35,290 nucleotides of DNA from Allorhodopirellula solitaria (GTDB lineage Bacteria; Planctomycetota; Planctomycetia; Pirellulales; Pirellulaceae): NCBI RefSeq assembly GCF_007859855.1, contig NZ_SJPK01000028.1:1-35290 (forward strand), given 5' to 3'. Position numbers and translations under genes: made by a program. The first letter of the stretch is position 1. Every line of letters starts with the position of its first letter. A model generated the notes under the pieces. It saw nothing but the letters and a program-made list of their open reading frames with translations, was not told the origin of the DNA and searched no databases. Positions 6,501-35,290 of the stretch are shown here, piece after piece.

Positions 6501-9500
6501 GCGTTCAGAGGCATCGCGAACGATCGCCGACTTGGTGGCAGCTGCTAGCGTAATCGAGGTCGATTCCGCGAATGCCTGTTGTGTCACGATGGCGAGCTCC
6601 AACCGGTCCCTCGCCGAGTTCCACTTGAAATTCGCCGTGGTGTCCTCAGCACCCACGACGGCCAGTTCAATCGATTCCACGGTGAGTCCGATGGCCAAGC
6701 CGGTGCTCACTGCTTCCAGAGCATTCGAGACGACTTGAAGAGACGCCTGGACGGCGAAGGTACCGGCGTCACCAATCAGAGGAATAGCTTGGGCGGGGCC
6801 AGCAACTAACAATGCAGCCGTAGCCGCAGTTGTTGCTACCAAGGCGGCAGTGTCCGCAGCGGCCGCTGCAATGCTCAGGTTGTCGACGAGATCCTGTTTC
6901 GCGTAGTACTCGATGTCCAGAAGTTCGGCTTCCGTCTTTAGCTGCTCCACCGTGACTCGACCTGTCGCCACCTCGGCGTCGAGGATCGCCTGTCCATTGC
7001 CCAAGGCCTCGACTGCGGTTTGCTCCGCAGCGGCCTCCGCCTTCGCGGCTGCCGCCTCTGCAATCCGAAAGGTTTCGTCGAGTTCGGCCTCGCGTGCCGT
7101 TGGAGCTGCGCCGCTGAGTGTTGTCGTTCCAGCGATCACGTTGATCGCCGATCCGTTGCCGTCGACAATGACCCCAACGCGAGATTCGACCGTCACATCT
7201 CCCGCCCCAGCATCGAGCTGGCCAATGGTGATGGTTCGCTCGGCACCCACCAAGATGTCTCCGCCAGCGGTCTTGAGGTTGCCTATCACGGCGACTGCTC
7301 CGCTGCCCACAACCGTCCCCGCTTGGATGCTAATCGTGCCTGCGACTGAAGTCTCGATCGTGTCAGCGGTATCAAGAAATACGATGGCCCCAGTCGGTGT
7401 CCGCAGCACAAGAGAACGCCCGGGAGCGATCGTCGCGTTGTTGTCTCCGATGTTTTCAATCGTGATCGACTCGGCATCGAACGTCAGCGTGCCGCTGCCC
7501 GCCGCTTCGAGCGAGGCTTCGGTAAGCAAGAGCGGGCCGGTGAAAGTCAAATTCGATCCCACCGCGCCGCCGTTCGCTAGGGCCACCTGATCCACCTCCG
7601 CCTCGAGTGGGTTCGCCGGGGTGCCGATCCCACCAGGAGCGGCGATGTCAAGCGTTTTCGCGATGATATTGACTTCCATGGGCGGCGGTGGATCGTTGCC
7701 GTCGGTAATCGATCCGTCGGCGCGCAGCTTCACCGTGTCGCCCTTGGCGATCGCAGTGTTCAGGAGGATGCTGCCCGCGCTGTCGATATCAATATCTGCG
7801 GCCTGCCCCAGTGCTGTCGCGGTGAGGGCCAGACTCGCGAGGTTTGCGTCGCTCAAGAAAATGCCGCCGGTCGTCGTCGCGGCCGTGATGGCTGACACAT
7901 TGGTCTCGATCTTGTTGCCCGACGTGCCAATCATGGACCCATTCAAAGTGGCACTGTTGGCGCTAACATTGGTGGCGGCGCCGTTCCCATCGAAGACTTC
8001 GCCCGATGCAGTCAAAGTGACTTCCTGGCCGGTCGCATTCACCGCGCCAAGGGTCAGGTTCCCTGAAGCGGAAACGGAAACTCGCGCACCCGTTGCCACT
8101 ACCGACGTCAGCACAAGTGCCTTTTTGTTGGCAAGCACCAATCCACCACCCGCTCCGGCGTCTGCCGTCAGAGCGTTGACCGAACTCTCCAGCCCCTCTC
8201 CGCCCAAACCGACACCGTTCGCCGCGACCAGGATGAGTGTGTCCGCCGATACATTGTTGTCAGCGCCGTTCCCGTCCAGAATCGTGCCATTGGTATCGAG
8301 GGCGACCTGACCCGGTGAGGAGACGAACCCCACGGTCATGTTGCCGGTCATGTTGCTCACCTCGATGTCGCCGACCGTCGCTGAGGCGTTGATTGTGAAC
8401 GCATCAGCCTCGCTAATAAAAACGCCCCCGGTGTCCGTCGTCACGGTCAATGACGTGATGTCCGTGTCAATCTTATTGAGGGAATCGCCGATGGCGGCCC
8501 CCGACGCGAGTTTTGTTGAGCCACCGCGAAGGTCCACGACGGCATCGTTGGTGTCATCAACGATCGCTCCCCCTGCGGTGATGCTGACGTTCCGAGTGCC
8601 TGCATCGACGAGGCCAAGCTTGACGTCGCCAGTCGTGGTTTCAAACGTCAGGGCCGCGCCCGCGGCGTTGAGCACTTGGGTGCTCGCGACAAACGAGAGG
8701 GAACCGCCGAGGAAGTTGATCGCCACATCGCCCGCGTTCGTGCTGGCCGCGACGGAGTCAATCGCGACCAGGCCACCACTCCTGTTGTCAATGTAAATCG
8801 AAGCGGCGGGAGTGATACCAATCGCGGCGGCACTGACGCTCGCGCGCAAGTCGGAGGTATTGGTCTCAAGCGGATCGAGGGCAATTCCGATGCCCGACGC
8901 GCCAGTCAGTTCGACGATCGAGCCCGTGATGTTCACGGCCGACCCGTTGTCATCGAGTAGCGCTCCGCCGCCGTTGGCCACGGTGACCGTGCCTTGCGCC
9001 GCGATGGTTTTGATTCGCAGGCTTGAGCCCGAACTCGTCAGCAGCACTTGGTTATCCGCCCCGCCGGCGACGACAGCCACCGCCGTGCTTGCAATCAACT
9101 GTGCCAAGAAGATTGGACCGTCGGTTGTGTTGGCACTGAAAGTCTCGACCGTCGATTCAATCGCGTCGCCGTCCTGTCCAACCGCGCCGTTAGCGACGAG
9201 GTTTTGGGCCCGGGCCAAGACGTTGTTTGACGCTTGATTGATGTCCAGTATTCTGCCCGCCGCGGAGCTGATCGTGACCATATCGGGGGCCGTGACGCTG
9301 TTGAGCAAGATATCTCCCTGGGCCGAAATCGAGACATCCTTTGTCCCAGCATGTGGATTCACAGGAGGATCCGCAGGGTCAAGCTGTGGATCGAAAACGA
9401 CGATCTGGTCTCCATTGAGCAACGGGGTTTGCCCTCCCTCCTTCGCCAGGACAGAGTTGATGATCAGGCCTGGCCCATTCGAATCGGCGATGTAAATGCC

Positions 9501-10361
9501 GCCGTCGTTGGTCGTGGCAGTGAGCGATCCGATCGCGGTTTCCATCGGATTGCTGGCCGTACCGATCGCGCTGTTGGTCCCCGTCGTCGTCAGATTCACG
9601 CCATTGGCAGCGGTAAGATTGACAGCCGCGCCGTTCCCGTCGGTGATCGCCCCGTTGAGTGCAGTCAGAGCGACGAACCCCGCGCCGGCCGATACGGTTC
9701 CAAGAGCCACGCCTCCAGCGGTGTCGGTAATGAACACACCACCGGTGACGGTCGCGGCGTCGAGGTTCGTGCTGTCGACCTCCAGTGTGGGATTCGTATC
9801 GGTCAGCTTGCCAATGCCCGTGGCAGCAGCGAGGTTGATATCGGTGGCCACGATGTCCGGATCACTCGTATTGTTGTCCGTGATCGAGCCGCCGTTGGCG
9901 TTGATTGTGACCGTGCCACTGCTTGTGACTGGGCCGTTGAGCGTAACGTTCTCCGCCGTCAAGGACAGGTTTCCACTAAGCATCAGGTCGGCAATCGTTG
10001 CCGAGTCAGTACCGCCGAGCAGATCGATGTTGATGGACGACACGTCGCTGGCCGTACAGGACACCACCATCGTGCCCGATCCCAAACAGCTTGCCGCTTG
10101 CGTGCCGCTGAGCGTGATGTTCTCCGTATCGGTAAAGCGGTAGTTCGCGCCGACAAGTTCGACTGCCAGCGTGCCAGCAGCTGCGCTGCCGTCGTAATCA
10201 AGGACGCCGCCGCTCAGGTTGAGGGTGGCCAGCATACGACGATCTTCCAAGCGCTCCAGGAAGAGCGATGCCGTCGAAGACCGTTGCAACGTACGACGGC
10301 GGCGTCGCAGAGAGCGTGATCGCGACAACGAAACACGTCTGGATCCAAACAACTTACTCAT
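549..10361 (-). CDS. giant LEPR-XLL/dockerin surface protein, adhesin-like
   Basis: About 3,270 residues, probably secreted or cell-surface. The ATG at 10,361 is preferred because AGGAA lies 6-8 nt upstream; a GTG 33 nt further out has no such site. The basic N-terminus (residues 1-30) leads into a LEPR-XLL-type motif, FLERLEDRRMLA (about 34-45). Residues ~50-2,200 are Gly/Ala/Asp/Thr-rich degenerate repeats of short beta strands, many built round 'ITDGNG' or 'DDNGSA', as in beta-helical adhesins. An Ala-rich helical block (about 1,087-1,311) interrupts them. A pre-peptidase-C-terminal-like domain follows (about 2,273-2,368; 'DVDWYRF' start), then FG-GAP-like calcium motifs (DFDGDGIDDLG, DFNGDGLDDIG; about 2,690-2,754). 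Two dockerin type I repeats end it (DVNRDGSVTALDAL, about 3,105; NVNRDGFITALDVL, about 3,152). Adhesion, matrix or substrate binding is inferred; no catalytic domain was recognised. Confidence 0.9.
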   Translation of the reverse strand: MSKLFGSRRVSLSRSRSLRRRRRTLQRSSTASLFLERLEDRRMLATLNLSGGVLDYDGSAAAGTLAVELVGANYRFTDTENITLSGTQAASCLGSGTMVVSCTASDVSSINIDLLGGTDSATIADLMLSGNLSLTAENVTLNGPVTSSGTVTINANGGSITDNNTSDPDIVATDINLAAATGIGKLTDTNPTLEVDSTNLDAATVTGGVFITDTAGGVALGTVSAGAGFVALTALNGAITDGNGAAVNLTAANGVNLTTTGTNSAIGTASNPMETAIGSLTATTNDGGIYIADSNGPGLIINSVLAKEGGQTPLLNGDQIVVFDPQLDPADPPVNPHAGTKDVSISAQGDILLNSVTAPDMVTISSAAGRILDINQASNNVLARAQNLVANGAVGQDGDAIESTVETFSANTTDGPIFLAQLIASTAVAVVAGGADNQVLLTSSGSSLRIKTIAAQGTVTVANGGGALLDDNGSAVNITGSIVELTGASGIGIALDPLETNTSDLRASVSAAAIGITPAASIYIDNRSGGLVAIDSVAASTNAGDVAINFLGGSLSFVASTQVLNAAGAALTFETTTGDVKLGLVDAGTRNVSITAGGAIVDDTNDAVVDLRGGSTKLASGAAIGDSLNKIDTDITSLTVTTDTGGVFISEADAFTINASATVGDIEVSNMTGNMTVGFVSSPGQVALDTNGTILDGNGADNNVSADTLILVAANGVGLGGEGLESSVNALTADAGAGGGLVLANKKALVLTSVVATGARVSVSASGNLTLGAVNATGQEVTLTASGEVFDGNGAATNVSANSATLNGSMIGTSGNKIETNVSAITAATTTGGIFLSDANLASLALTATALGQAADIDIDSAGSILLNTAIAKGDTVKLRADGSITDGNDPPPPMEVNIIAKTLDIAAPGGIGTPANPLEAEVDQVALANGGAVGSNLTFTGPLLLTEASLEAAGSGTLTFDAESITIENIGDNNATIAPGRSLVLRTPTGAIVFLDTADTIETSVAGTISIQAGTVVGSGAVAVIGNLKTAGGDILVGAERTITIGQLDAGAGDVTVESRVGVIVDGNGSAINVIAGTTTLSGAAPTAREAELDETFRIAEAAAAKAEAAAEQTAVEALGNGQAILDAEVATGRVTVEQLKTEAELLDIEYYAKQDLVDNLSIAAAAADTAALVATTAATAALLVAGPAQAIPLIGDAGTFAVQASLQVVSNALEAVSTGLAIGLTVESIELAVVGAEDTTANFKWNSARDRLELAIVTQQAFAESTSITLAAATKSAIVRDASERIRDQAILARDQANVIGTVSAPLGLDVSGVVNVTAGPTDSFLQVVGSTAVDLIQTTGSVTLISTGAISDADAGAGADILATGLRIDAIGGIGGASDPLETRVATINAANTTGGDIAIANTVGAQAALDITGISNSGGGNVIISNHGSTVAGEGITVTGPIIASDAVAAVTINSGSPLTIDSDITAAGAIVLTAADTPGAGDDLTVNSGATIESTSSSVTLRAGDNVAISPGSTIQASTEIVIKADFNDDAADTIGADVIVAGTLIAPLATIGVDPTADDDDTFTITPQVTTPIIVDAEDGEDTLNFIANGLPVTIVGNQITAEGQQPVTFNNFEFVNIINASGGGNVTLLAESGDSDELILTGTGSRAGTFTLNGGVPISFSGVDSFTFNAGDLADVIDVTPFATSVLPWNVAVAIDGGAATDQITYNNVAGLIDSTRVTATAPQAGHIDSPGVTAALNSQLVSFTNVEDIAANANLGEDETLIVNQRDTSAADTTFLLNNDFELVGLFNVDTENYVGLTLNGNGGDDTFEITPGTIPVFVDGGDPIGSTAGDLIHFLPVTGYTLEPGPENDSGGFVPQQAGVQRVSWDHIEEVSVTGGGAGVFLGTNGDDDTTIIARDSSTHAGADGVQDFTVSLNIGPSVLFLDTPVFTVNALSGDDDIVLQTLDPNVAVWDVDFTIEGATPGATTGVGQQGDVFQLETQGVQTVTYSPTEIDVAELSSIINFGGIEQVVYRGQGDDRLFMHGTDADDQFIVNPANGGSGSHRSNRAPTFDFAGADAVTATGGSGGTDIVIVEGTDSNDVLIASAATRLVTLQDSTGITLEPVVLGSGIDMVTLQANAGDDRILVSPDPIGGSKLQFSVHGDLYNASDRLVVEDQGIGNTIQIHQGPDQRSGSVIVGDLPPVSYEGIEYVNIAPLDADASSNTFGGTGSDGNGRIVVFHPDPFSYNSNFHNPAELPDLAESTAKPNINPGALVDPFGLGSDLNGDVDWYRFIASKTGTFQFKVLIDALPTLANGQPGLPGDGRLRIDMFHADGKPIARLPAEMDDAIQTIGAKEGESYLVRIQGATPDSINIYDISVADMDKLGPQIFDPDGAGPQQAIQITGNSTYNIFDVKPIIQGPTPLVNSLTINIQDLPTRFPGFVYGALDTDISSAAGLYTLTGDHNGIIPIADIFVVNAPVFEGDLATATIELRFDSPLPDDRYTLTLSDSIVDPSGSKLDGESNAQQPQGSPTLPSGDTVAGGDFIARFTVDSRAELGVYAKGSVYIDTNGNNLFDPEATGSDDTNEDIVYKLGSQTSRIIAGNFVVGEADVADGYDKLATYGSFGGSFRWLIDTNNNGVPDLVVRDPAQISGLPVAGNFDANAVNGDEVGLKAGSTWYLDTDHDFLLDSSLSGNMVGLPFVGDFDGDGIDDLGAWSNDLFVLDLSDDGIDGMTDASFTFGFPGVREIPFAADFNGDGLDDIGLWQPDGAGVSPEEQAEFYVLMSQRTPKTLLNDALFAGNELVQITQSFQSRPADEFVSIDPTKSYVLSGEARSGDGAGGLYDPANKQYFGFASYDIDYQRILPWHVLKYASATDTVLTADLKPGDTQVFLQNAVGWANGGPAHQRSLAWYGYTDSQGHTYDDYTYTRNVAIDRVNGTWGPGGVTGNVITLHQPWTGPLIAAGSAVRNATSGVSYNYAGLQYQSVPDVWTRYEVTLSGTGVATTQFRPGTAFIKPIVLANYQGNANNQIAWKEIQLHAAVSSTSVVERITAATDGSGGNEITFTPQPFGQDLFATFGDSLALPIVGNFDPPLVPAGGDPVEPVRVMTLSTTNLDNPYDVNRDGSVTALDALTIINYLNLEQSSSGESILVESGSTIQDQGPMLNVNRDGFITALDVLNVINYLNELVTQVVNPEPVPSVILPEVPSIVITDHDDEGAREFGTVIRDVAEGLVNFSTAASKDDSQVRVDDVFSSWDGMTDADPMETEASDLSFQIELLATTNRW

Positions 10362-11006
10362 GGTTTTTCCTGGAAACTGACCGGGCGCAATCACGATGGC
10401 TCACTCACATATCCTCTCGTCTATACAGAGGGGAAAGGTGATACTCGCCATCGGCGTACATTGGCAGCAGGAACGGGCTCCTAGCGGCGGCGCGAGAAGA
10501 GGGGCCCTGCACCCCCATCCGTGGTGATGTCACGTATATGAATGTATATCATTGGTAAACGCAATAGTGCGGATGAGCACCCGGTTTGGTGAGTTGATTC
10601 AGAATGCACTCCTCGGGCCTGCCTGCGACCGATCGCGGACAGCGGCCAGCTTCCGTGAGCTCGCGCCCCCGCCCCCGCTGGCCTGTCATCCCGCAGCGTT
10701 CGAGCGAAGCTCTCCAGTTGATCGATTGGCAGCCCACCCGAATGCCTTGGCATTTGCCAAGCGAACGCCAGGTCGCTAGTCACGCCGCTGCATGACCTGT
10801 TCATTCATTCGCAGCGCGACGATGCCATCGAGTTAAATCACGGTCTCCCGTCCTCGTCGGTATCAAATGAGTTCCGGATTGCACTTCAACCTTATCGGCT
10901 GATCAGAACGAATAGCGTCCGCGGACTAGCTGAAGCAGTCCTTGGCCTTGCGTGGCAATCCCCTTCGCGAGAAATATTGCCAAACCCACAGCAACTCGTG
11001 AGATCA
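10362..11006. other. intergenic region, no supported gene
   Basis: About 645 nt between two minus-strand genes. Short frames exist on both strands (around 10,481-10,804) but they overlap one another, look compositionally random and lack start signals. The stretch should contain the promoter of the giant gene near 10,362-10,560, but I see no convincing -35/-10 pair. The AT-rich patch at 10,530-10,560 (TATATGAATGTATATCATT) is the only notable local feature. Confidence 0.5.
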
Positions 11007-12989
11007 CTAGGTTTGCTTTAGGAACCTCGCAAAGATGTCACGATTCACGGCATCATTCCCCGCTTGGAAGTACGACGAATGGGCGCACGCCGGTGAAACC
11101 AATCCAAATGTCGATTTGCAGCCGTGAGGATCCAGACGCAAGAACTCCTGGTCCACGTGCATTCCCGTGGCTCGGATGCTGCCTCCGACCCCGTCTCCAC
11201 GGGCATCCAGATTCGTCCACTCATTGACGATGGCCGGCTTGTGCCCGCTGCTCGGACGCAATTGCTTCGCGACGTATCCAATCGATAGTGCTGCGCCGAC
11301 GGTGAACCAGTTCTTCACTCGGCCACGCAGCCCCTCTCGCGAGAGCACGTGCAGCGCCTCGTAAGCCACAATGGTTCCCCAGCTATGACTCACAAGCTCA
11401 ACGGAATCACCTCGTTCAAGGAGTGGGCGTAACACATCGGTTGCTTCGCCAATGACCAATTTTCGAATGCGATCGCTGGACAGGTATTTGACGAAATCAT
11501 CAATGCAGTCCAAGCCGGGGATGCCAAAGAGTGCCCGCGGCATAGCCCCCGGCGGCATTGGATCTCGTGACAAACCCGATGAGCTACGCCCGACTTCACG
11601 CTCGGCAATCTGCTCACCTGCTTCGCGAACCATCCGTTCCGCCAGAACCGCCTCCAACACCGTTCTTGTTTGTTGCATTTCGAGCGGGTCGATTTCCGAT
11701 GCGAGACTGCGACTCGTTCTCGACACATGCTCACTCCACAACACCTCTTTTCTGTTCGCGTTGAGTTCCACTCGCAATGCTGCTGCCAGATGCGGTGCCA
11801 TCGCGTCGAACCAATCATCTGAGTAACCAGACTCGTGCTTGCAGATCCCGTGGACGTAGACCAACGAACGTGTCCCCGAACGCATTGTCGCCGAGCCAGC
11901 GACAGCCGGTTGCTCGCGTGAAACACCCAGATGATCAGCGATTTGCTGCATGATCTCGAGCAGTTTGGACCAATCATCTCCGTCTACCCTGCTCGGCACC
12001 CTCTCGTCCTCATCGCCACCGAATAGGATCGACGTTGTCGAATCAGGTTCCAGTTGCGGGACTTGGCTAAAATTACTCCGCTTCAGCGATTGACGCAGCG
12101 TTTTGATAACCCTATCAGCGGCGAAACCCTCATTGCTCATACGAGCGGCTTGGCAAAAGTGATAGGTAAATGCGCCATGGAAATCGTTGTCAATGTAGGC
12201 GTCGGCACTGGTTTGGTCGTCACGACAACCAGACCACAGCACATGATTCATGGACTTTTCTTCGCCGCTTCGGCTTCGAGTCGAGCGCATGAGTTCGCGG
12301 AATGACCTCGATTTCCTGGCTTTCTCGACTGCCAAGTCGATCTCTGCCGGTGGCTGCACAAATCTTGCCAGTACCGTTGCTTTGCCAATCTCCGAATGCA
12401 ATTCCGGTCGGACGTCGATGGGTGCACTGCGACTGCGTCGCCCGCTATCAAGCTGAGCTCGTTGTATCGCAATCTCATCAAGCGACTGCGCTGACGCGCT
12501 CGCGTAGTCCCCCCTGACTGCTCGGCTCAGCTCCGGTTTGATCATTCGCGTCGCCGTCCCGCTGTGACAACAATCGAGCAAGAACGTCACATGCACTCCG
12601 TCGGGGATCTTCTTGGTCCATTCTGCCAGCTCGTCGTCGAGTAGGTATGTCGACGGATCATCCCAAGCCATGCCGTACAAACACAGCAATTCGTCTCGAC
12701 AATCCGCTTCGCCCGTCTCACCGTCCAAATCGGCGGTATAGGACCCGTGTCCCGAAAAATGGAACACCAAGCGGTCGCCGGGTTTCGCTCCGCGCAGCAA
12801 CCACTTCCAACCCTTATCCATCACGGACTTAGTGACTTCGTCGTCCGTTTTCACGCGAATGTTGTCTTCGTCGAAATCAAACGCATCGACGAGTAGCTGT
12901 TTGAGAGACTCCGTGTCACTGACGCATCCGCGCAGATCGCTGATCGTCTTGTAATTGTTGATCCCCGAAAGGAATGCTTTGTCTGCCAC
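11007..12989 (-). CDS. caspase-like (peptidase C14) and alpha/beta-hydrolase fusion protein
   Basis: 660 residues, probably cytoplasmic; no signal peptide seen. GTG start at 12,989 with GGAGA about 9 nt upstream. The N-terminal ~160 residues are a metacaspase/orthocaspase p20-like domain. The fold start 'AFLSGINNY' leads to the catalytic His in HFSGHGS (His81) and the catalytic Cys in LLDCCHSGT (Cys141). A middle part (about 165-355) holds many R/S residues and a second block, 'NHVLWSGCRDDQTSADAY', typical of the C-terminal half of bacterial caspase domains. From about residue 375 an alpha/beta hydrolase begins (LVYVHGICKHESGY). Its nucleophile elbow is SHSWGT (about 535-540) and a late 'AHSSYF' (about 640) could give the catalytic His. 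Family knowledge: caspase-like proteases act in stress or regulated death. A lipase/esterase effector role for the C-terminus is inference. No neighbouring partner gene was recognised. Confidence 0.88.
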   Translation of the reverse strand: MADKAFLSGINNYKTISDLRGCVSDTESLKQLLVDAFDFDEDNIRVKTDDEVTKSVMDKGWKWLLRGAKPGDRLVFHFSGHGSYTADLDGETGEADCRDELLCLYGMAWDDPSTYLLDDELAEWTKKIPDGVHVTFLLDCCHSGTATRMIKPELSRAVRGDYASASAQSLDEIAIQRAQLDSGRRSRSAPIDVRPELHSEIGKATVLARFVQPPAEIDLAVEKARKSRSFRELMRSTRSRSGEEKSMNHVLWSGCRDDQTSADAYIDNDFHGAFTYHFCQAARMSNEGFAADRVIKTLRQSLKRSNFSQVPQLEPDSTTSILFGGDEDERVPSRVDGDDWSKLLEIMQQIADHLGVSREQPAVAGSATMRSGTRSLVYVHGICKHESGYSDDWFDAMAPHLAAALRVELNANRKEVLWSEHVSRTSRSLASEIDPLEMQQTRTVLEAVLAERMVREAGEQIAEREVGRSSSGLSRDPMPPGAMPRALFGIPGLDCIDDFVKYLSSDRIRKLVIGEATDVLRPLLERGDSVELVSHSWGTIVAYEALHVLSREGLRGRVKNWFTVGAALSIGYVAKQLRPSSGHKPAIVNEWTNLDARGDGVGGSIRATGMHVDQEFLRLDPHGCKSTFGLVSPACAHSSYFQAGNDAVNRDIFARFLKQT

Positions 12990-17955: not shown

Positions 17956-18864
17956 TTAAGAGCTGCTCCGCTGCGCGTGCTCGACTAAACCGGCGACTGT
18001 TTCTCGCAGCAATTCGGCGCCGCCAAATTGCATTCCCAGAGCTTGGATTTTGTCGGTCGAGATCTGATGCTTGGGCTGCTTGGGCTCACCTGAGATCTGA
18101 GCCGAGCTTCCTGAAAGCTCCTTGGCTAGGTTCGCAACGTCGAGTTCAGAGATGTATTGATCGTAGCAGTTGTAGGCTTCTCCTTTGATCCCATCTGCTT
18201 TAAGAAGGAGGCCGATGGCCTTCGCTACATCAGCGGCATGGACTTCCTTGCCGCCGCGAGAGCATTCAACGCTTTCTCCGCGGACGACTGCCGCGATCAA
18301 GTCGTACCATTTGCTCTGCTCTGCCGGGTGGGCAACACCGTAGACGCCAGTGGGCCGGACAGCGCAGATTGGATAGTCTTGGCCGAGGCCGAAGCTATGA
18401 ACAAATTTCTCAATCGCCGCTTTGTGCGCCCCATAGTGACTCTTCGCCCAGAGGGGATGTGTTTCATCGAGCGGGCGATCATCGAGAATTTTATCGTGGA
18501 CCGCACAAGTCGAGACCGTCACGAAACGCCCGGCACCGGACTGGCGGGCGGCCTGAATCAACTTGAGCGTACCGACCACGTTCTTCTCGACAAAGTCAAT
18601 CAGATCGCCTTCGGCGCCCATGAACCCTGCACCCGGTCGATCGAGCGCCGCATGGACCACGGCATCACAACCATCGACCAACGTGTCAGCTTGCTTTTGA
18701 TCGCCCAGGTTGCCTTCCACCCATGTCAGATCTTGGATGTGCTCGAAACCTTGCCGGTCACTGGAGGCGCGGTGCAAGCAGCGCAGTGAGTGGCCTTCGT
18801 TGTTGAGATAATCGACAATGTAACGACCGATGAAACCTGTCGCGCCCGTCAATGCAATCTTCAT
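17956..18864 (-). CDS. NAD-dependent epimerase/dehydratase (extended SDR)
   Basis: 302 residues, cytoplasmic. ATG at 18,864 with GGAG 6 nt upstream. The Rossmann nucleotide-binding motif GATGFIG is at residues 7-13 and is followed by an acidic-end strand typical of NAD(P) binding. The active site reads YGAHK (Tyr144, Lys148) with an upstream Ser/Thr in VSTCAVH (about 117-123), so the catalytic triad is intact. The region VRPTGVYG is the usual extended-SDR substrate-loop start. Relatives act on nucleotide sugars, flavonoid-like ketones or sterols; the substrate cannot be told from sequence. Its 5' side abuts the tandem-repeat array, so its promoter must lie in the roughly 100 nt at 18,865-18,972 or within the array. 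Confidence 0.9.
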   Translation of the reverse strand: MKIALTGATGFIGRYIVDYLNNEGHSLRCLHRASSDRQGFEHIQDLTWVEGNLGDQKQADTLVDGCDAVVHAALDRPGAGFMGAEGDLIDFVEKNVVGTLKLIQAARQSGAGRFVTVSTCAVHDKILDDRPLDETHPLWAKSHYGAHKAAIEKFVHSFGLGQDYPICAVRPTGVYGVAHPAEQSKWYDLIAAVVRGESVECSRGGKEVHAADVAKAIGLLLKADGIKGEAYNCYDQYISELDVANLAKELSGSSAQISGEPKQPKHQISTDKIQALGMQFGGAELLRETVAGLVEHAQRSSS

Positions 18865-18972
18865 GTCTGTCTCCGTTGGGAGTGTCTCGGATTTCCTTTG
18901 GGAAATGCAACGTATGCTTCGGAGAGGCCGATGTCGAGGCGGTTGGATGCGTACTCGGTGAGGGGGGGAGAG

Positions 18973-19399
18973 CTCGCGACGGTCGTAGCCGTCGGTCGAC
19001 TATGTAGCCAGACGGCTTCGCCCGTCTGGGCTGTGGGAGAGAGTGCCTGTTACTCGCGACGGTCGGAGCCGTCGGTCGACAATGTAGCCAGACGGCTCCG
19101 CCCGTCTGAGCTGTGGAGAGAGTGCCTGTTGCTCGCGACGGTCGGAGCCGTCGGTTGACAATGTAGCCAGACGGCTCCGCCCGTCTGAGCTGTGGGAGAG
19201 AGTGCCTGTTGCTCGCGACGGTCGGAGCCGTCGGTCGACTATGTAGCCAGACGGCTCCGCCCGTCTGAGCTGGGAGAGAGTGCCTGTTACTCGCGACGGT
19301 CGGAGCCGTCGGTCGACAATGTAGCCAGACGGCTCCGCCCGTCTGAGCTGGGGAGAGAGTGCTTGTTGCTCGCGACGGTCGGAGCCGTCGGTCGACTAT
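18973..19399. repeat. tandem array of ~79-80-bp units with internal inverted arms
   Basis: Units begin with CTCGCGACGGTCG at 18,973, 19,053, 19,132, 19,212, 19,290 and 19,369, giving five full copies and a truncated sixth. Each unit holds GACGGTCGGAGCCGTC and, about 20 bp later, GACGGCTCCGCCCGTC, which is the reverse complement of the first arm with one mismatch. Between the arms is TCGACAATGTAGCCA or TCGACTATGTAGCCA. Copies differ at a few positions (CAA/CTA, GTTAC/GTTGC, gain or loss of G in the AGCTGTGGGAGAG linker). The array stops 7 nt before the ThuA gene's stop codon and lies upstream of the SDR gene. One frame stays open through it on both strands, but this follows from the repeat period and is not a gene. 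Confidence 0.92.
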
Positions 19400-19406
19400 G
19401 TTTACC

Positions 19407-20375
19407 CTACTTGGCTGGTGCCAGGGCGGGTTGTATCTCGTCGGCCTTGGCTGTGGGGGTTGCGTCGGCATCGAGGTCGCCGATGGCGTATTGAATTCCG
19501 TCGAGCATGTGACGCAGCATCGCTGGGTTCTGGAAGGTCTCGTTGCGGTGTCCGAAGTTGGTGTAGAAGATTCGGCCATCGCCCGCCTGTCGGATCCAAG
19601 ACACGGGGACTTCACGCGGTCCGTCATCGATTCGCTTGGATACCTCCTCTTGGTTCATGTCGAGGCTCACGAGTAACCGCAAGACCTCGGGGCCTTGATA
19701 GCTTTCCGGCTGGTATTGATAGATCTCGTCACTGTGCCAGAAACCTTGACCGTCAAAAGCGTCGTTGAGGACATGCTCGGGATCATCGAGTTTGAATGCC
19801 CAGGTACCGCCCGCACCCCAGGGGTGACCGCTGAATTGGCCGCCGATCAGCGCCCGACACCTTGGGAAATCACCAAAGTTGTCGCTGGCGGCGTGGATAC
19901 CAGCGAGGCCGTTACCGTCGGCAATGAAGTCGAGCAGAGCATTCTGTTGCGACGGCTCTTGGAACTGCATCCCGGTCGTGTTGTTTAAGAGCACGAGGTC
20001 GTAGTTCGCGAGGTTCTCGTTGGTGAAGACGTCATAAGTGTCGGCAAAGTCTGCTTGGAACGCACCGGTTTTTTCTGCCATCGCCTTGATCGCCTGATTG
20101 GCATAGGGGATGGAACCGTGGACGAAGCCTTCGCAGCGATAGAAGACGAGAATCTTGCGAGTGGCTCGTGGTTTCGCTGTCGGCGTGGCTGGGACGGCGC
20201 GACCAATCGTCTGCTGCGCCGCGTCAGAGAGCGGCTTGAAAATTTCTTGTTTCTTCTTCTGCCATGGATCGACAGTATCCTGGGCGTCCGCAGGGTCGAT
20301 GCCCCAAGTGAGCGAGCAGAGTGTGGAGGCAAGGCAGATGGTCGAGGCGAGCAAGACGCGCGAAAGCTTGATCAT
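19407..20375 (-). CDS. secreted ThuA-domain (trehalose-utilisation-like) protein
   Basis: 322 residues. ATG at 20,375; no strong ribosome site. A signal peptide is likely (residues 1-25, with LLASTICLASTLCSLTWG as the hydrophobic core). The ThuA-like fold, a class I glutamine-amidotransferase-like domain, runs from about residue 73 (RKILVFYRCEGFVHG) through YDLVLLNNTTGMQFQ, GLAGIHAASDNFGDFP, GGQFSGHPWGAGG and WIRQAGDGRIFYTNFGHRNETF to about 300. All family landmark segments are present. Members are common in planctomycetes and are linked to sugar metabolism; the substrate is not predictable. The last ~20 residues are Ala/Pro/Lys-rich. The stop codon is 7 nt from the repeat array. Confidence 0.9.
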   Translation of the reverse strand: MIKLSRVLLASTICLASTLCSLTWGIDPADAQDTVDPWQKKKQEIFKPLSDAAQQTIGRAVPATPTAKPRATRKILVFYRCEGFVHGSIPYANQAIKAMAEKTGAFQADFADTYDVFTNENLANYDLVLLNNTTGMQFQEPSQQNALLDFIADGNGLAGIHAASDNFGDFPRCRALIGGQFSGHPWGAGGTWAFKLDDPEHVLNDAFDGQGFWHSDEIYQYQPESYQGPEVLRLLVSLDMNQEEVSKRIDDGPREVPVSWIRQAGDGRIFYTNFGHRNETFQNPAMLRHMLDGIQYAIGDLDADATPTAKADEIQPALAPAK

Positions 20376-28200: not shown

Positions 28201-28861
28201 ACCCGTGATAGCCTGGAATCACGCTTTTGCATATAGGCGTGACGTGATATTAGCAGCATTTTTGGCGTTTGCAACTCGATGCAGTCAATCGCACTCAGAC
28301 ACGAGGATTTCGGGTATTCCTCTGTGCCGTTTGGGTATTTACCCGGCGATGAAATTCCGAGAAAACGGACTCGGTGACGCCCGCTCCCTGTCGTGAAAGT
28401 ACCTGCCGAAATCCGGCGCAAATCATGGATGCGAGCACTCGGCCCCTCCCCACAAGCAAACAGTGAAAGTTCACGGGTTGCAGTGCGCAAATTATGGCCA
28501 AAAACACGGGCGTGAGCGTCATAGCATGGATGGGCAAGGGGGTGATTCGACATGGATTCGCCAAAACATCGCGTCCCAAGGCGAATACACTACCTGAAGC
28601 CACCCGTATGGCTGGTTCAGCGGGAGCAGTTTCAGTATCGGATAGACCCTGCCGACGCTGCATCCTGCGGTCGTTTGAGCTCGTCCTACGCGGCACCCTG
28701 CAACACCAATCGCCCGGAATCGAATACACCTCTGTGCGGTTCGAGCCAGTTCGTATTATTCACCCGGTCGGATCCACTGGGACATGGAGAGATGCCGGAT
28801 CTCACTTCGTTCTACTCACACCACCTCTCCGCGACTGGTTGCCGAATGTGTCGGCCGAAAA
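28201..28861. other. element-edge region upstream of hsdR, no supported gene
   Basis: About 660 nt between the tRNA fragment and the hsdR N-terminal gene. Frames at 28,494-28,997 and 28,552-28,899 (plus) overlap hsdR or each other and resemble nothing known. An inverted repeat (CGTGATagcctggaATCACG, 28,204-28,223) lies next to the tRNA fragment. No integrase gene is visible. The promoter of the defence operon is expected in the last ~200 nt, but no clear hexamers were picked. Confidence 0.45.
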
Positions 28862-29350
28862 ATGGATTCAATCGACAAACACTCGCTATCCGAACGTGAC
28901 ATCTGCACCAAGTTCATCACCCCCGCAATCGTGGGTGCAGGTTGGGATGTGCAGCTTCAGGTCCGTGAAGAGGTCACGTTTACCGACGGGCGCGTGATTG
29001 TGAAGGGCCGGTCGACCTCGCGAGGGCCGAAAAAGCGAGCTGACTACGTTCTGTACCACAAACCAGGGATGCCGCTGGCGGTTGTCGAAGCCAAGGACAA
29101 TACGCACTCTGTTGGCGATGGGATGCAGCAAGCCCTGGCATACTCGCACCAGGACTGCCTCGATGTGCCGTTCGCCTTTAGCAGCAACAGCGATGGGTTT
29201 CTGATCCACGATCGCACGGGCACGTTTCCGCACAAAGAGTTCGAAGTGTCGCTCGACCAGTTCCCAACCCCGAAGGACCTGTGGGACCGGAACCTCCGGT
29301 GGCGTGGGATTAACGAGCAGGCCGAAGAGATTGTCGAGTCCGATTTCTAA
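28862..29350 (+). CDS. hsdR: Type I restriction HsdR N-terminal nuclease part (split gene)
   Basis: 162 residues from ATG 28,862; the frame opens further upstream, but only from here does it match the family (ERDICTKFITPAIVGAGWD). It is the PD-(D/E)xK cleavage domain of a Type I restriction subunit: KKRADYVLY gives the Asp (Asp61) and VVEAKD the Glu and Lys (Glu76, Lys78), followed by a Gln-containing helix (MQQALAYS). The frame ends with TAA at 29,348-29,350 and continues in the same frame, starting with GTG, as the helicase part. Homologues have both parts in one chain, so this is either a nonsense mutation, an error, or a real split into two subunits. The nuclease residues are intact. It is the first gene of the operon. 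Confidence 0.88.
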   Translation: MDSIDKHSLSERDICTKFITPAIVGAGWDVQLQVREEVTFTDGRVIVKGRSTSRGPKKRADYVLYHKPGMPLAVVEAKDNTHSVGDGMQQALAYSHQDCLDVPFAFSSNSDGFLIHDRTGTFPHKEFEVSLDQFPTPKDLWDRNLRWRGINEQAEEIVESDF

Positions 29351-31210
29351 GTGGACGCGACCGAGAAGTTTGCACGCTACTATCAGGTAAACGCCATCAA
29401 CCGGACGGTCGAGGCGATTGCATCAGGCCGCGATCGGGCTCTATTGGTCATGGCCACGGGCACCGGCAAGACCTATACCGCGCTCCAGATCATTTGGCGG
29501 CTGTGGAAGTCCGGAGCCAAGAAGCGAATTCTATTCCTCGCCGATCGCAACATCTTGGTGGATCAAACCAAGACCAACGATTTCAAGCCGTTTGGCGGCG
29601 CGATGAACAAGATCCGCAACCGGACCGCAGACAAATCCTTCGAGGTTTTCCTGTCGCTCTATCAGGCAATCACCGGCCCTGACGAAGCGGACAAGGTTTT
29701 CAAAGCATTCTCGCCCGACTTCTTTGGCTTGATCGTGATCGATGAATGCCACCGCGGCAGCGCCAAGGACGATTCCGCATGGCGGGAAATCCTCGACTAC
29801 TTCAGCGGCGCATCGCATCTTGGAATGACCGCGACACCGAAGGAGACGAAGTACGTCTCCAACATCCACTATTTCGGCGATCCCATTTACACGTACTCGC
29901 TCCGGCAGGGGATCGAGGATGGGTTTCTTGCGCCGTACAAGGTGATTCGCGTCGACATCGACAAGGACCTGCAGGGATGGCGTCCGACGAAAGGACAGGT
30001 CGACAAGCACGACAATCTGATCGAAGACCGAATCTACAACCAGACTGATTTTGACCGCTCTCTGGTGCTCGAAAAACGCACCGAGCTCGTTGCCCAACGA
30101 GTGACCGAATTCCTTGCCACCACGAACCCGTACGACAAGACGATTATCTTCTGTGAGGACATCGATCACGCCGAGCGGATGCGTCAGGCAATCGTCAATT
30201 GCAATCCTGACCTTGTTGCCGAGGACGACCGATACGTTGTCCGGATCACTGGCGACAACGCGGAAGGGAAGGCCCAGCTCGACTTCTTCATTGATCCCGA
30301 GTCGCGCTACCCGGTCATTGCGACGACATCCAAATTGATGGCGACGGGAGTGGACGCGAAGACCTGCAAGCTGATTGTGCTGGATCAACGAATCCAATCC
30401 ATGACCGAGTTCAAACAGATCATCGGCCGTGGGACGCGAATCGACGAGGACTACGGCAAGCTATTTTTCACGATCATCGACTTCAAGCGGGCGACCGAGT
30501 TGTTTGCCGACCCCGACTTCGACGGCGATCCCATTTCCGATGAGGACTACGATCCCGAAGCGACAGGATCGGGAACTAAGGGGGGAGGAGATGGCGAGGG
30601 CGACGATACCACCGGAGGCGGTGATCCGCCGCCCGGCCCCGGCGCCAAGAAGTACTATGTCAACGATACGCCGGTCAGCGTGGTCGCCGAGCGGATTCAG
30701 TACTACGGTGCCGATGGCAAGCTGATCACCGAATCGCTGCGTGATTACACCAAGAAGAAAGTGATGTCCCGTTTCGCGTCCATGGACGAGTTCCTGCAAA
30801 CCTGGAACTCAGCCGAAAAGAAAGCCGCGATCATGTCTGAGTTCGAACAGCAGGGCGTCTTGTTCGAAGCACTCGCGGATGACGTCGGCATCGATCTCGA
30901 CCCCTTCGACCTGTTGTGCCATGTTGTGTACGGACAACCGCCCCTGACGCGGCGTGATCGAGCCGAGAAGGTGAAGAAGCGAGATTACTTCACCAAATAT
31001 GGCGATCAGGCACGGGCCGTCCTAGAAGCTTTGCTAGAGAAGTACGCGAACCAGGGCATTTTGTCCATCGAAAGCATGGATGTGCTCAAAGTCGACCCCT
31101 TGGACGAATTTGGAACTCCGGTTGAGATCATCAAGTTATTCGGCGGCAAGGCCGGCTATCTCGCCGCGCTGAAGGATCTCGAAACTCAACTCTACGCCAA
31201 CGCATCCTGA
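29351..31210 (+). CDS. hsdR: Type I restriction HsdR motor and C-terminal part (split gene)
   Basis: 619 residues if translation starts at GTG 29,351, immediately after the in-frame TAA of the nuclease part. It begins with the family's [15 protein letters not shown] segment, then Walker A ATGTGKT (about 35-41), motif II DECH in VIDECHRGS, motif III MTATP, and motifs V-VI ([20 protein letters not shown]). The C-terminal third, after a Gly/Pro linker ([19 protein letters not shown]), is the EcoEI-type HsdR C-terminal domain. All motor motifs look intact, so loss of selection on it is not evident. If expressed separately it would translocate DNA without its own nuclease unless it re-joins the upstream product. 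The next gene starts 4 nt downstream. Confidence 0.9.
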
Positions 31211-31214
31211 GAAA

Positions 31215-32351
31215 ATGGCAATTTATCGATACACCCAAGTCGATATCGTGGCGCTCACTCCCACCAGCTTTTCAGACGTCGCTGTCTCTGAACGTGCGGA
31301 TTTGCAACGTTTGCTCCAGGATCGGATAGAGATTCTTGATCCGAATTTGTTGGTTATCTCGGAGGAGTTTAGCGATTGGGAAGAAAGTAAACGCCGAATC
31401 GACCTGCTTGCGCTCGACCGAGAGGGGAACGTCGTGGTTGTCGAGCTCAAGCGAACCGAGGATGGTGGTCATATGGAGCTGCAAGCGTTGCGATATGCGG
31501 CGATGGTCAGTGCGATAACGTTTGCAGACGCGGAAAAAACTTTCGCGAACTACCTTGCCAAACGTGATGATGTTCGTGACGCGAAAGAGACGCTTTTATC
31601 ATTTCTGGGCTGGGATGAACCCATTGAATCCGATTTCGGAAAAGCCGTGCGCGTTATGCTGGTTGCTGCGGAGTTCTCAAAGGAGATTACGACTTCCGTG
31701 CTGTGGCTTCGCGAGCAGAGGATCGATATATCCTGCGTCCGAATCAAACCCTATGGGACCAGGGAAGAACTGTTTCTGGATGTCCAAACCATCATTCCGT
31801 TGCCGGAAGCAGAGGCGTATCAGATCAAAATTCGTCAGAAGCAGGCAGCCAAGGATGGCAGTACTGTCTCGGCATGGAATGGCCACGACTTCTATGTATC
31901 GCTTGGCGAGTTTGACGATGCGAATTGGGACGATTGCCGAAAATACGGCTTTGTTGCTGGGAGCGGAGGCCGTTGGTTTACCCGGACTCTGGACCACTTA
32001 TTTGTCGGCGCTCGCGTCTTTGTCCTCATTCCGAAACACGGCTACGTCGGCGTCGGCATCGTGAAAGAGAAAAATCAGACCGTTGACAAGTTTATGGTGG
32101 GCGAGGGCAGCGAAGCAAAGTGCCTGCTTGATCTCCCGTTGTCAGCAAAGGATATGAGCAATCACATCGGAGATCCGGACATGTGCAGCAACCTGGTCCG
32201 CGTGGAATGGATCAAGACCGTTTCCAGGGATCAGCCTTTCTGGGAACCAGGATTGTTCGCATCCCGGCACACGGCATGCAAGCTGAAGGACCAAAACACC
32301 ATCGACAGAGTTTGCCAAAGATTTGGCATCGACAGTACGGCAGGAAACTAA
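31215..32351 (+). CDS. NucS/DUF91-like PD-(D/E)xK nuclease with PUA/EVE-like C-terminal region
   Basis: 378 residues, ATG at 31,215, 4 nt after hsdR and 6 nt before hsdM. The N-terminal part (about 1-110) has the NucS/DUF91-type nuclease pattern: Glu50 in LVISEEFS, Asp63 in RRIDLLAL, Glu77 and Lys79 in VVVVELKR, and Gln90 in MELQALRYA. The centre (about 110-220) is helical. The C-terminal part (about 224-290) reads FYVSLGEF, KYGFVAGSGGRWF, VGARVFVLIPKHGYVGVGIVKE, which resembles PUA/EVE-like base-recognition modules. That resemblance is by eye only. Location inside a Type I R-M operon suggests a defence function, perhaps modification-dependent cleavage; this is inference. No hsdS or known Type I accessory has this architecture in my experience. 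Confidence 0.78.
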   Translation: MAIYRYTQVDIVALTPTSFSDVAVSERADLQRLLQDRIEILDPNLLVISEEFSDWEESKRRIDLLALDREGNVVVVELKRTEDGGHMELQALRYAAMVSAITFADAEKTFANYLAKRDDVRDAKETLLSFLGWDEPIESDFGKAVRVMLVAAEFSKEITTSVLWLREQRIDISCVRIKPYGTREELFLDVQTIIPLPEAEAYQIKIRQKQAAKDGSTVSAWNGHDFYVSLGEFDDANWDDCRKYGFVAGSGGRWFTRTLDHLFVGARVFVLIPKHGYVGVGIVKEKNQTVDKFMVGEGSEAKCLLDLPLSAKDMSNHIGDPDMCSNLVRVEWIKTVSRDQPFWEPGLFASRHTACKLKDQNTIDRVCQRFGIDSTAGN

Positions 32352-32357
32352 CGCAAC

Positions 32358-33860
32358 ATGTCTATCTCCACTACGATCAAATCCATTCAAGACATCATGC
32401 GGAAGGATGCGGGCACCTACGGGGATGCCCAGCGAATTGAGCAGCTTGCGTGGATGTTCTTCCTGAAAATTCTCGACGATCGCGAGACCGAGGAGGAACT
32501 GCTCGAAGATGACTTCCAATCACCGATCCCGAACAAGTATCGCTGGCGTAATTGGGCGACCGATGAAGAAGGCATGACCGGCGATAGCTTGCTCGATTTC
32601 GTTGACAACGGACTGCTTCCTGCGTTGAAAAACCTAACCGTCTCGGCGGCTAATCCTCGCGCCGTGGTCATCCGGTCCGCCTTTGACGATGCCAACCAGT
32701 ACATGAAGAACGGCACGTTGATGCGCCAGGTCATCAACAAGATCAATCACATCGATTTCAACAACAGCAAAGACAGGCACCTGTTCGGCGACGTCTATGA
32801 GCAAATCCTCAAAGACCTGCAATCGGCGGGCAACGCGGGCGAGTTCTACACGCCGCGAGCAATCACGCAGTTCATGGTCCAGCAAACCGCTCCGCAGCTG
32901 GGTGAGCAGATCCTCGATCCGGCGTGTGGCACGGGCGGCTTCCTCACCGCCGTCATCGATTACATCCGTGAAGAGACCGGCCAAGTCAAAAAACCGGCTC
33001 AGGAAGATACCCTGCAAGCCAGCATTCACGGTGTCGAGAAAAAGCACTTGCCGCACATTCTCTGCACCACGAATCTGCTGCTGCACGGCATCGACGTCCC
33101 CTCGCAGATCCGCCACGACAACACGCTCAGCCGCCCGCTGCGGGACTACGGTCCAAAAGATCGTGTAGACGTCATCGTCACCAACCCGCCCTTCGGCGGC
33201 ATGGAAGAAGACGGTATCGAGTTGAACTTCCCCAAAGCGTTTCAAACCCGCGAAACTGCCGACTTGTTCCTCGTCCTGATCACGCACCTGCTCAAGGACG
33301 GGGGGCGCGGCGCCATCGTCCTGCCCGATGGCACGTTGTTCGGCGAAGGCGTGAAAACGCGGATCAAGGAACGCCTGCTCGACGAGTGCAACCTGCACAC
33401 GATCGTCCGCCTTCCCAACGGAGTCTTTGCGCCCTACACCAGCATCAAGACCAATCTGCTGTTCTTCACCAAGGGACAGAAAGGCAAGAAAGGGGCTACA
33501 AAAGACATCTGGTTCTACGAGCATCCGTATCCGCCCGGCGCCAAGAGCTACAACAAGACCAAGCCGATCCGCATCGAAGAGTTCGACGCGGAGAAGAAGT
33601 GGTGGGGCAAGCCGGACGCGCGGGGCGGGTTCAAAGGCCGCAAAGCTAGCGAGCGGGCGTGGAAGGTCACCGCGGCCGAAATCATTGAGAACGGCTACAA
33701 CCTCGACATCAAGAACCCACACAACTCCGACACCGGTCCTGGCGATCCCGACGAACTGCTGGCCGAACTGGAATCGATCCGCGCCGCCAGCCGCCAGACG
33801 CTCGACCAGCTCAAAAGCGAGCTCGCCACGGCGCTGTCCTCATCGGGAGGTGGGAAGTAG
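32358..33860 (+). CDS. hsdM: Type I DNA methyltransferase subunit HsdM
   Basis: 500 residues, ATG at 32,358. Adenine-N6 methyltransferase subunit of a Type I restriction-modification system. The N-terminal helical HsdM domain (about 5-130, with AQRIEQLAWMFFLKILDDRE) precedes the N6-Mtase core: AGEFYTPRAI (about 165), SAM motif I ILDPACGTGGFL (about 186-197) and catalytic motif IV NPPFGG (about 276-281). DGTLFGEGVKTRIKERLLDECNLHTIVRLPNGVF is the familiar downstream block. Length is normal and no frameshift is seen. It needs HsdS for target recognition; none is seen upstream, so hsdS is expected to the right of the window. Confidence 0.95.
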   Translation: MSISTTIKSIQDIMRKDAGTYGDAQRIEQLAWMFFLKILDDRETEEELLEDDFQSPIPNKYRWRNWATDEEGMTGDSLLDFVDNGLLPALKNLTVSAANPRAVVIRSAFDDANQYMKNGTLMRQVINKINHIDFNNSKDRHLFGDVYEQILKDLQSAGNAGEFYTPRAITQFMVQQTAPQLGEQILDPACGTGGFLTAVIDYIREETGQVKKPAQEDTLQASIHGVEKKHLPHILCTTNLLLHGIDVPSQIRHDNTLSRPLRDYGPKDRVDVIVTNPPFGGMEEDGIELNFPKAFQTRETADLFLVLITHLLKDGGRGAIVLPDGTLFGEGVKTRIKERLLDECNLHTIVRLPNGVFAPYTSIKTNLLFFTKGQKGKKGATKDIWFYEHPYPPGAKSYNKTKPIRIEEFDAEKKWWGKPDARGGFKGRKASERAWKVTAAEIIENGYNLDIKNPHNSDTGPGDPDELLAELESIRAASRQTLDQLKSELATALSSSGGGK

Positions 33861-33862
33861 CG

Positions 33863-35041
33863 GTGGCCGATAACACTCAACTCACAACGCCAGCTCAGTT
33901 CACCGAACTGCTGAGCACCATCCAGATCGTCGACGGGCGATTGGCTAGCCACGCATCCCGGGCGGTCAACATCAGCTTGACGGCCCGCAACTGGCTGATC
34001 GGTTACTACATCCACCAGTACGAACAAAACGGCGAAGATCGAGCCACCTACGGCGACAAATTGCTCAACCGGCTCTCCGAAGAACTGGGGGAAGCGGGCG
34101 TCAGCCGCACCGAAGCAAGGGAACTGCGTCGCTATCGGAAATTCTATCGGGCCTATCCGAGCATTCGGGAGTCGTTGTCTCCCGAATTCCGCAAACTACT
34201 GCCAGTTAATGACTTCGGGTCAGACGAACCAATTCGGGAGACACCGTCTCCCATTTCGGTGGATCCCATGCGGGACTCACAGAAATCCGTTTCCGCCTCC
34301 GACATCATCACCAAGCTGGCCTTCAGTCACATCGCCGAACTGATCGCTCTGGACACCCCCGAAAAACGCGAGTTCTACGCCGCCCAATGCATCTCTGGAG
34401 TCTGGTCCGTCCGAGAGCTACGGCGGCAGATCGCCAGCCTGCTGTACGAACGCAGCGAACTGTCTACCAACAAACGGAAACTGGATCAGCTCACCGCAAC
34501 CACCGCCGAAACTCAGCCATCGGCACTTGTCATTCGCGACCCGTACATCTTCGAGTTCCTCGGCCTGCGTCCCGCTGAGGTGATGAGCGAATCGCATTTG
34601 GAAGACCAACTGCTCAGCAAGTTACAGGACTTTCTGCTCGAACTCGGGCAAGGGTTCTGTTTCGAAGCACGCCAGAAACGCATTCTGATCGGCGACACCC
34701 ACAACTTCATCGACCTCGTATTCTACCACCGCATCCTCAAGTGCCACGTGCTGGTCGAACTCAAGCTCGAATCATTCAGTCATGAAAACATCGGCCAGTT
34801 GAACACGTACGTCAGTTGGTACGACCGCAATGTGCGGAGTGAAGACGACAACCCACCGATCGGCATCTTGTTGTGTACTGATCATGACAAGTCCCTCGTC
34901 GAATACGCCTTGGCGGGCATGGACAACTCGCTGTTCGTGTCTCAGTACCAACTGCAACTTCCCAGCAAGGAAGTGTTGCAAGCCCAGCTCGACGCCGAAC
35001 GCCAGCGACTGAAATCGCTCAGTGAAGGAGGTGAGCAATGA
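33863..35041 (+). CDS. DUF1016/YhcG-type PD-(D/E)xK nuclease family protein
   Basis: 392 residues from GTG 33,863, only 2 nt after hsdM and with GGAGG about 15 nt upstream. The N-terminal DUF1016 helical region (ARNWLIGYYIHQYEQNG, then YGDKLLNRLSEELG, then FYRAYP) is followed by a variable linker (about 110-155). The C-terminal nuclease domain has Asp284 in NFIDLVFYH and Glu299/Lys301 in VLVELKLESF, then Gln in IGQLNTYV and GILLCTDHDK. The PD-(D/E)xK set is intact. YhcG-family proteins are frequent passengers of Type I R-M operons; their role is not settled. It overlaps the next gene by ATGA. Confidence 0.9.
   Translation: MADNTQLTTPAQFTELLSTIQIVDGRLASHASRAVNISLTARNWLIGYYIHQYEQNGEDRATYGDKLLNRLSEELGEAGVSRTEARELRRYRKFYRAYPSIRESLSPEFRKLLPVNDFGSDEPIRETPSPISVDPMRDSQKSVSASDIITKLAFSHIAELIALDTPEKREFYAAQCISGVWSVRELRRQIASLLYERSELSTNKRKLDQLTATTAETQPSALVIRDPYIFEFLGLRPAEVMSESHLEDQLLSKLQDFLLELGQGFCFEARQKRILIGDTHNFIDLVFYHRILKCHVLVELKLESFSHENIGQLNTYVSWYDRNVRSEDDNPPIGILLCTDHDKSLVEYALAGMDNSLFVSQYQLQLPSKEVLQAQLDAERQRLKSLSEGGEQ
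35027..35036 (+). promoter_or_regulatory. perfect Shine-Dalgarno for the last ORF
   Basis: The sequence AAGGAGGTGA lies within the end of the DUF1016 gene a few nt before ATG 35,038. It matches the full anti-SD and is unusually strong for this window, where most genes have weak or no ribosome sites. Confidence 0.7.
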
Positions 35042-35277
35042 GTTTAGCCGAACCGTTGGATACACCTCCGTGGGAGTCGCCAGAGTGGCAGGAAGCGGTC
35101 TGCCAGACTCCCGGCTTAAAGCCGTTTTTCGACAACCTTGAGTCGTTTGTGGAGTTGCCGAGCGGTTCTTCTCGGAATTTAGTGGCACGTATTTTCCGGC
35201 ATCAGATCGAGTTTGCCGCAGTAAAACAGAATCCTGAGTCGGTAGTTGGCGAAGGAACGAAAGCCTCTTGCGGCTGA
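35038..35277 (+). CDS. small protein of unknown function at the end of the R-M operon
   Basis: 79 residues, ATG at 35,038 overlapping the previous stop (ATGA) and served by a perfect Shine-Dalgarno, so translation is well supported. The sequence (start MSLAEPLDTPPWESPEWQ) is not recognised; Pro/Trp/Glu-rich start, no membrane segment. It is not an HsdS by sequence. The stop at 35,275-35,277 lies 13 nt from the window edge, so nothing more can be said of what follows. A frameshifted longer gene cannot be excluded. Confidence 0.6.
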   Translation: MSLAEPLDTPPWESPEWQEAVCQTPGLKPFFDNLESFVELPSGSSRNLVARIFRHQIEFAAVKQNPESVVGEGTKASCG

Positions 35278-35290
35278 CTTGATGGATTGA

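Follow-up and report, generated by a model that had tools for sequence, protein, structure and literature searches.

We found that a Type I restriction-modification system of the EcoEI kind in Allorhodopirellula solitaria has probably been inactivated recently, by a nonsense mutation in hsdR and by the insertion of an ISL3-family element in hsdS. We put the probability of this reading, which is one of ordinary decay, at about 0.8. The system lies at one end of the stretch of DNA that we analyzed (the window), which is one whole contig of 35290 bases from an assembly of 62 contigs that is 99.92% complete. The first-pass annotation of this DNA had noticed the stop codon in hsdR and had offered four readings of it: a split protein made by termination and reinitiation, a recent nonsense mutation, a phase-variable-like switch, and a base-call error. 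Our analysis favors the nonsense mutation, lends no support to a split made by reinitiation, and makes a phase switch unlikely. The locus would be a clear case of the loss of a Type I restriction system in an environmental planctomycete, in which hsdM and two candidate defense genes are still open, and it is a caution to check the rest of an operon before calling a tidy stop-start joint a designed split.

The stop codon in hsdR

An in-frame TAA codon at positions 29348–29350 splits hsdR into an HSDR_N nuclease part and an EcoEI-type motor part. The nuclease part (28862–29347, forward strand, 162 codons) matches Pfam HSDR_N (2.9e-11) and PDLC03049, the PADLOC profile for Type I HsdR (1e-53); its ATG at 28862 is in the same frame as the TAA, and the list of open reading frames includes a further in-frame ATG upstream, at 28784. 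The motor and C-terminal part (29351–31210, forward strand, 619 codons plus TGA) begins with a GTG directly 3′ of the TAA (0 nt), matches ResIII (3.7e-44), Helicase_C, and EcoEI_R_C (6.3e-34), and closes at the TGA at 31208–31210. The Type I (EcoEI-type) domain order of HSDR_N, SF2 motor, and EcoEI_R_C is present across both parts according to Pfam and PDLC03049, and what is missing is a single continuous HsdR polypeptide, which the TAA interrupts. The reading frames, Pfam, and PADLOC all confirm the earlier description of two parts in the same frame, lying end to end with this one codon between them. Residues 1–161 of the first part align with positions 1–158 of PDLC03049, and the second part aligns from its residue 2 with the profile from position 162. 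Exactly one profile position is left for the stop, indicating that there has been no insertion or deletion and that one residue, rather than a stretch of residues, has been replaced.

To see which residue normally occupies this position, we aligned 61 intact HsdRs, taken from 120 listed database matches (7995 scored). The stop column is occupied by Y in 36 of these homologues, by H in 16, and by F in 9. P0123 and P0122, the closest HsdRs among the matches listed (respectively 88 and 89% identical to the window over the motor part and 88 and 85% over the nuclease part), both have Tyr in this column. A single base change in a Tyr codon gives TAA, and one substitution would account for the stop.

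The stop column corresponds to residue 163 of P0123. In an AlphaFold model of P0123 made from the 61-sequence alignment (mean pLDDT 80, pTM 0.64), this residue lies in a 14-residue coil (159–172) that is flanked by helix 152–158 and helix 173–187 and is located just N-terminal of the motor sequence RYYQ. The first-pass annotation was therefore right that the stop parts the two domains cleanly, insofar as the model places it in an inter-domain coil. A stop that falls exactly in the linker and is followed at once by a start triplet is rare by chance, and this placement counts against decay.

The operon and the interruption of hsdS

The genes are arranged in the order hsdR, PDC-S11, hsdM, DUF1016, hsdS, and the junctions are tight: the first three measure 4, 6, and 2 nt, and at the last the two genes overlap by ATGA. 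The hsdM gene of a complete Type I system is present and open (32358–33860, forward strand; N6_Mtase, 1.1e-77, and HsdM_N), and is 93–94% identical to hsdM in G005, G009, and G023, three genomes in which hsdR and hsdS are both full-length frames. Two PADLOC candidate defense genes, both of them open, lie among hsdR, hsdM, and hsdS. The first (31215–32351, forward strand) is of the PDC-S11 kind and matches PDLC04915 (6.2e-185) over residues 1–376, with no Pfam match; the second (33863–35041, forward strand) is a DUF1016/YhcG PDDEXK nuclease gene (PDC-S02) that matches YhcG_C (1.4e-56) and DUF1016_N. The operon of G005, which belongs to the same genus as the window's genome, contains S11 and has no DUF1016/YhcG counterpart between hsdM and hsdS, and in the G023 stretch a tblastn search did not detect S11.

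A second lesion, which is absent from the first-pass annotation, is found at the far end of the operon, where hsdS is cut after 42 codons by one end of a multi-copy ISL3 element. The 5′ remnant of hsdS (35038–35163, forward strand) overlaps the stop codon of DUF1016 and is 76% identical to residues 1–51 of the G023 HsdS and 60% identical to that of G005. The match to the HsdS of these relatives stops at 35163/35164, exactly at the start of the insertion sequence, of which the window contains one end (35164–35290, reverse strand, corresponding to the 3′ end of the transposase gene) that runs into the contig end. Elsewhere in the genome, these final 127 bases recur nine times at 99–100% identity and twice more at lower identity (87 and 70%), and the terminal repeat alone has 29 matches. 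The attributes of an ISL3 element can be seen in a full copy elsewhere (L152:582-1893, 1312 bp), which has a transposase (DDE_Tnp_ISL3, 2.8e-78), terminal inverted repeats, and an 8 bp target duplication. Because homology to hsdS ends where a repeated insertion sequence begins, we conclude that hsdS is interrupted by that insertion sequence; the contig ends at the element because the element is repeated in the genome.

When the HsdS proteins of G005 and G023 were used as queries, no remainder of hsdS at useful identity was found in the assembly. Other genome matches to the G005 query were only 23–30% identical. Those to the G023 query were 21–39% identical, plus one 48-residue stretch at 54%, and 10 of its 11 other matches lie on C1, C2, C12, and C13, which are contigs with other hsdM or hsdR genes. 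A search for the partner end of the element (the inverted repeat plus the expected duplication) did not find it; the lone genome match differs at 3 of 22 bases. The rest of hsdS has thus either been lost by deletion or fallen into a gap of the assembly, and in place of a complete cognate hsdS there are 42 codons and then the insertion sequence.

In the mechanism that we propose, one substitution would have converted a conserved aromatic codon in the inter-domain linker of HsdR to TAA, and the translation product would be a 162-residue nuclease domain lacking the motor part, which itself would be made in small amounts or not at all. The ISL3-family element would break hsdS after 42 codons and so leave no cognate specificity subunit; with HsdS absent, the system would neither restrict nor modify. 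We infer that the system lost its function through the two lesions, that it did so recently, and that once one subunit had gone the other came under relaxed selection. A 2013 review calls disruptions and scrambled organizations of hsd genes common (PMC3874165), and a truncated hsdR has been described in several strains of Mycoplasma agalactiae (PMC9465063). The proposed decay of hsdR and hsdS at this locus is an ordinary result.

We also noted features elsewhere in the genome and in the window. A second HsdR with EcoEI_R_C, on contig C12 (L164:7042-9527, reverse strand), consists of two overlapping frames with the break inside ResIII and looks disrupted too, and there are HSDR_N frames, open over 1070–1103 residues, on C2 (two), C11, and C13. 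The window encodes a 3281-residue protein (549–10394, reverse strand), in which Pfam recognizes only a dockerin domain, close to its end, and a protein of 660 residues (11010–12989, reverse strand) that carries a caspase-like Peptidase_C14 domain. A tandem array at 18972–19401 (80 bp unit, 5.4 copies, 94% matches) lies inside an open frame at 18758–19627 (reverse strand).

The joint in relatives and selection on HsdR

If hsdR were maintained as two chains, a stop at the joint might be shared with relatives. We found none in 29 loci from the genus, family, and order (L004–L032), none in 80 GTDB loci, and none in the 8 of ten further family loci that contain both parts, so that the stop at the joint is common to no relative compared, which argues against a split. 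A single open frame runs across both parts in 27 of the 29 loci; L023 has no nuclease part in frame, and in L028 a TAA elsewhere follows 470 codons of open frame. The frame check is passed by 77 of the 80 GTDB loci; L052 and L085 fail only because a stop falls among the outermost codons matched, and the hsdR of L047 has a stop inside the motor part, away from the joint. The nuclease part is absent from the stretch covered in two of the further family loci (L117 and L121) and is also absent from the database proteins P0132 and P0152. Another 20 database proteins of ~160 residues end near the joint, some with an altered tail and others just stopping, an observation made at the protein level only. 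The database entry P0001 is a cluster of two sequences, represented here by one of them. Judging by these sequences, related hsdR genes appear to be disrupted now and then, in no case at the joint among the loci compared. We rejected one further candidate sign of an old, adapted split, a burst of changes around the joint, which was apparent in comparisons with L004–L006, the three closest relatives among the genomes; most of the residues concerned are already present in P0123.

According to the first-pass annotation, all of the catalytic and motor motifs on both sides of the stop look intact. The domains are indeed found, but 3 of the 200 columns that are invariant in the other 61 sequences are altered in the window (G110S, F208L, and D289G in P0123 numbering). 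In the same test, P0123 and P0122 have zero changes, and five other sequences of the 61 reach three. At sites where five outgroups all share one residue, 12 changes are found in the window alone, compared with 4 for P0123 and 4 for P0122 (p = 0.016, with the branches treated as equal). The tree groups the window with P0123 (support 99). Its terminal branch lengths (0.081 for the window, 0.097 for P0123, and 0.072 for P0122) show no acceleration, which counts against decay, as does the fact that both parts of HsdR are otherwise open and well conserved and that hsdM, S11, and DUF1016 are open.

In comparisons with G005, G009, and G023, dN/dS is low in both parts of HsdR (0.055–0.071 and 0.038–0.045), like that of hsdM (0.043–0.055) and S11 (0.041–0.059). 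The low values in both parts speak for a functional split, but dS in hsdR is 1.9–2.5, which is near saturation, and dN/dS is therefore uninformative on recent change. As far as the sequences can tell, the selection picture fits a loss of hsdR that would be recent relative to the divergence between the window and P0123.

Two chains or one, and known systems

The alternative that survives best, although we consider it improbable, is that the ribosome ends at the TAA and restarts at the adjacent GTG, and that separate nuclease and translocase chains then reassemble. TAA and GTG adjoin, the stop falls in what is modeled as an inter-domain coil, the junctions of the operon are otherwise tight, and restart over very short distances is established (PMC10666635), so that some restart at the GTG is possible. 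According to the same source, the commonest natural stop-start spacings are −4 and −1. As in coupled genes, the start at the joint is close to the stop; the accompanying ribosome-binding signal is lacking, however. Shine-Dalgarno-like pairing is absent at GTG 29351 (−2.5 kcal/mol): the background median is −2.1 kcal/mol, and among 221 background start triplets 41% score at least as well. The corresponding values are −5.7 for hsdM, −11.6 for DUF1016, and −13.4 for hsdS, and those of hsdR (−1.7) and S11 (−1.5) are no better than that of the joint. GTG 29351 is also the only in-frame start that would give the whole motor, the next ones (29444 and 29450) being at the ATP-binding motif. The truncation of the cognate HsdS argues against a working split as well. 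Once hsdS is broken, the enzyme has no known partner that could bring it to DNA. Finally, we found no published natural split of HsdR into nuclease and motor in the portions of the open-licence literature available to us, including parts of PMC6158711, PMC2602864, PMC3120642, and PMC12707154. If the split did work, it would mean that the nuclease and translocase of a Type I enzyme can function on separate chains. A natural two-chain HsdR that perhaps acts outside site-specific restriction, and is kept as a target-independent nuclease/motor pair beside PDC-S11 and DUF1016, seems to us a long shot.

It is similarly doubtful that the TAA is a base-call or assembly error and that the chain is whole in the cell. 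The genome is a draft in 62 contigs, and a single substitution would explain the stop, but such an error would leave both the insertion sequence in hsdS and the excess changes at conserved sites unexplained. Read-through of the TAA by a suppressor tRNA or by recoding, giving the full chain, is very unlikely: the frame does go on without an insertion or deletion, but ARAGORN, run on the 43 tRNA-match loci rather than on the whole genome, named 42 of the 43 matches, and no anticodon among these reads TAA, TAG, or TGA. ON/OFF switching of hsdR through simple repeats has been proposed in mycoplasmas (PMC9465063), but a reversible phase-variable switch can be dismissed almost completely here, as the stop arose by substitution and no tandem repeat in 28862–31210 is listed by Tandem Repeats Finder.

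Recent decay of a once complete system, the reading that we prefer, can be set beside three known cases. The window resembles systems with an EcoEI/EcoAI-type (Type IB) HsdR in that HSDR_N, the ResIII motor, and EcoEI_R_C occur in order and hsdR shares an operon with hsdM and hsdS; the solved relative 3h1t spans both HsdR domains. In contrast to those systems, the HsdR chain of the window is divided by a stop and its hsdS is interrupted. Mycoplasma agalactiae PG2 is reported to have an eroded locus in which hsdR stops prematurely, with insertion sequences near its loci, but the stop there arose when a poly(A) tract gained two bases, and methylation has continued (PMC9465063), whereas in the window the stop came about by substitution and hsdS is interrupted as well. 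In CglI (R.CglI and H.CglI), a nuclease and a helicase-like ATPase are likewise encoded separately; CglI, however, is described as a dedicated two-protein enzyme (PMC5737866), whereas the two parts in the window appear to come from one gene that was continuous until recently.
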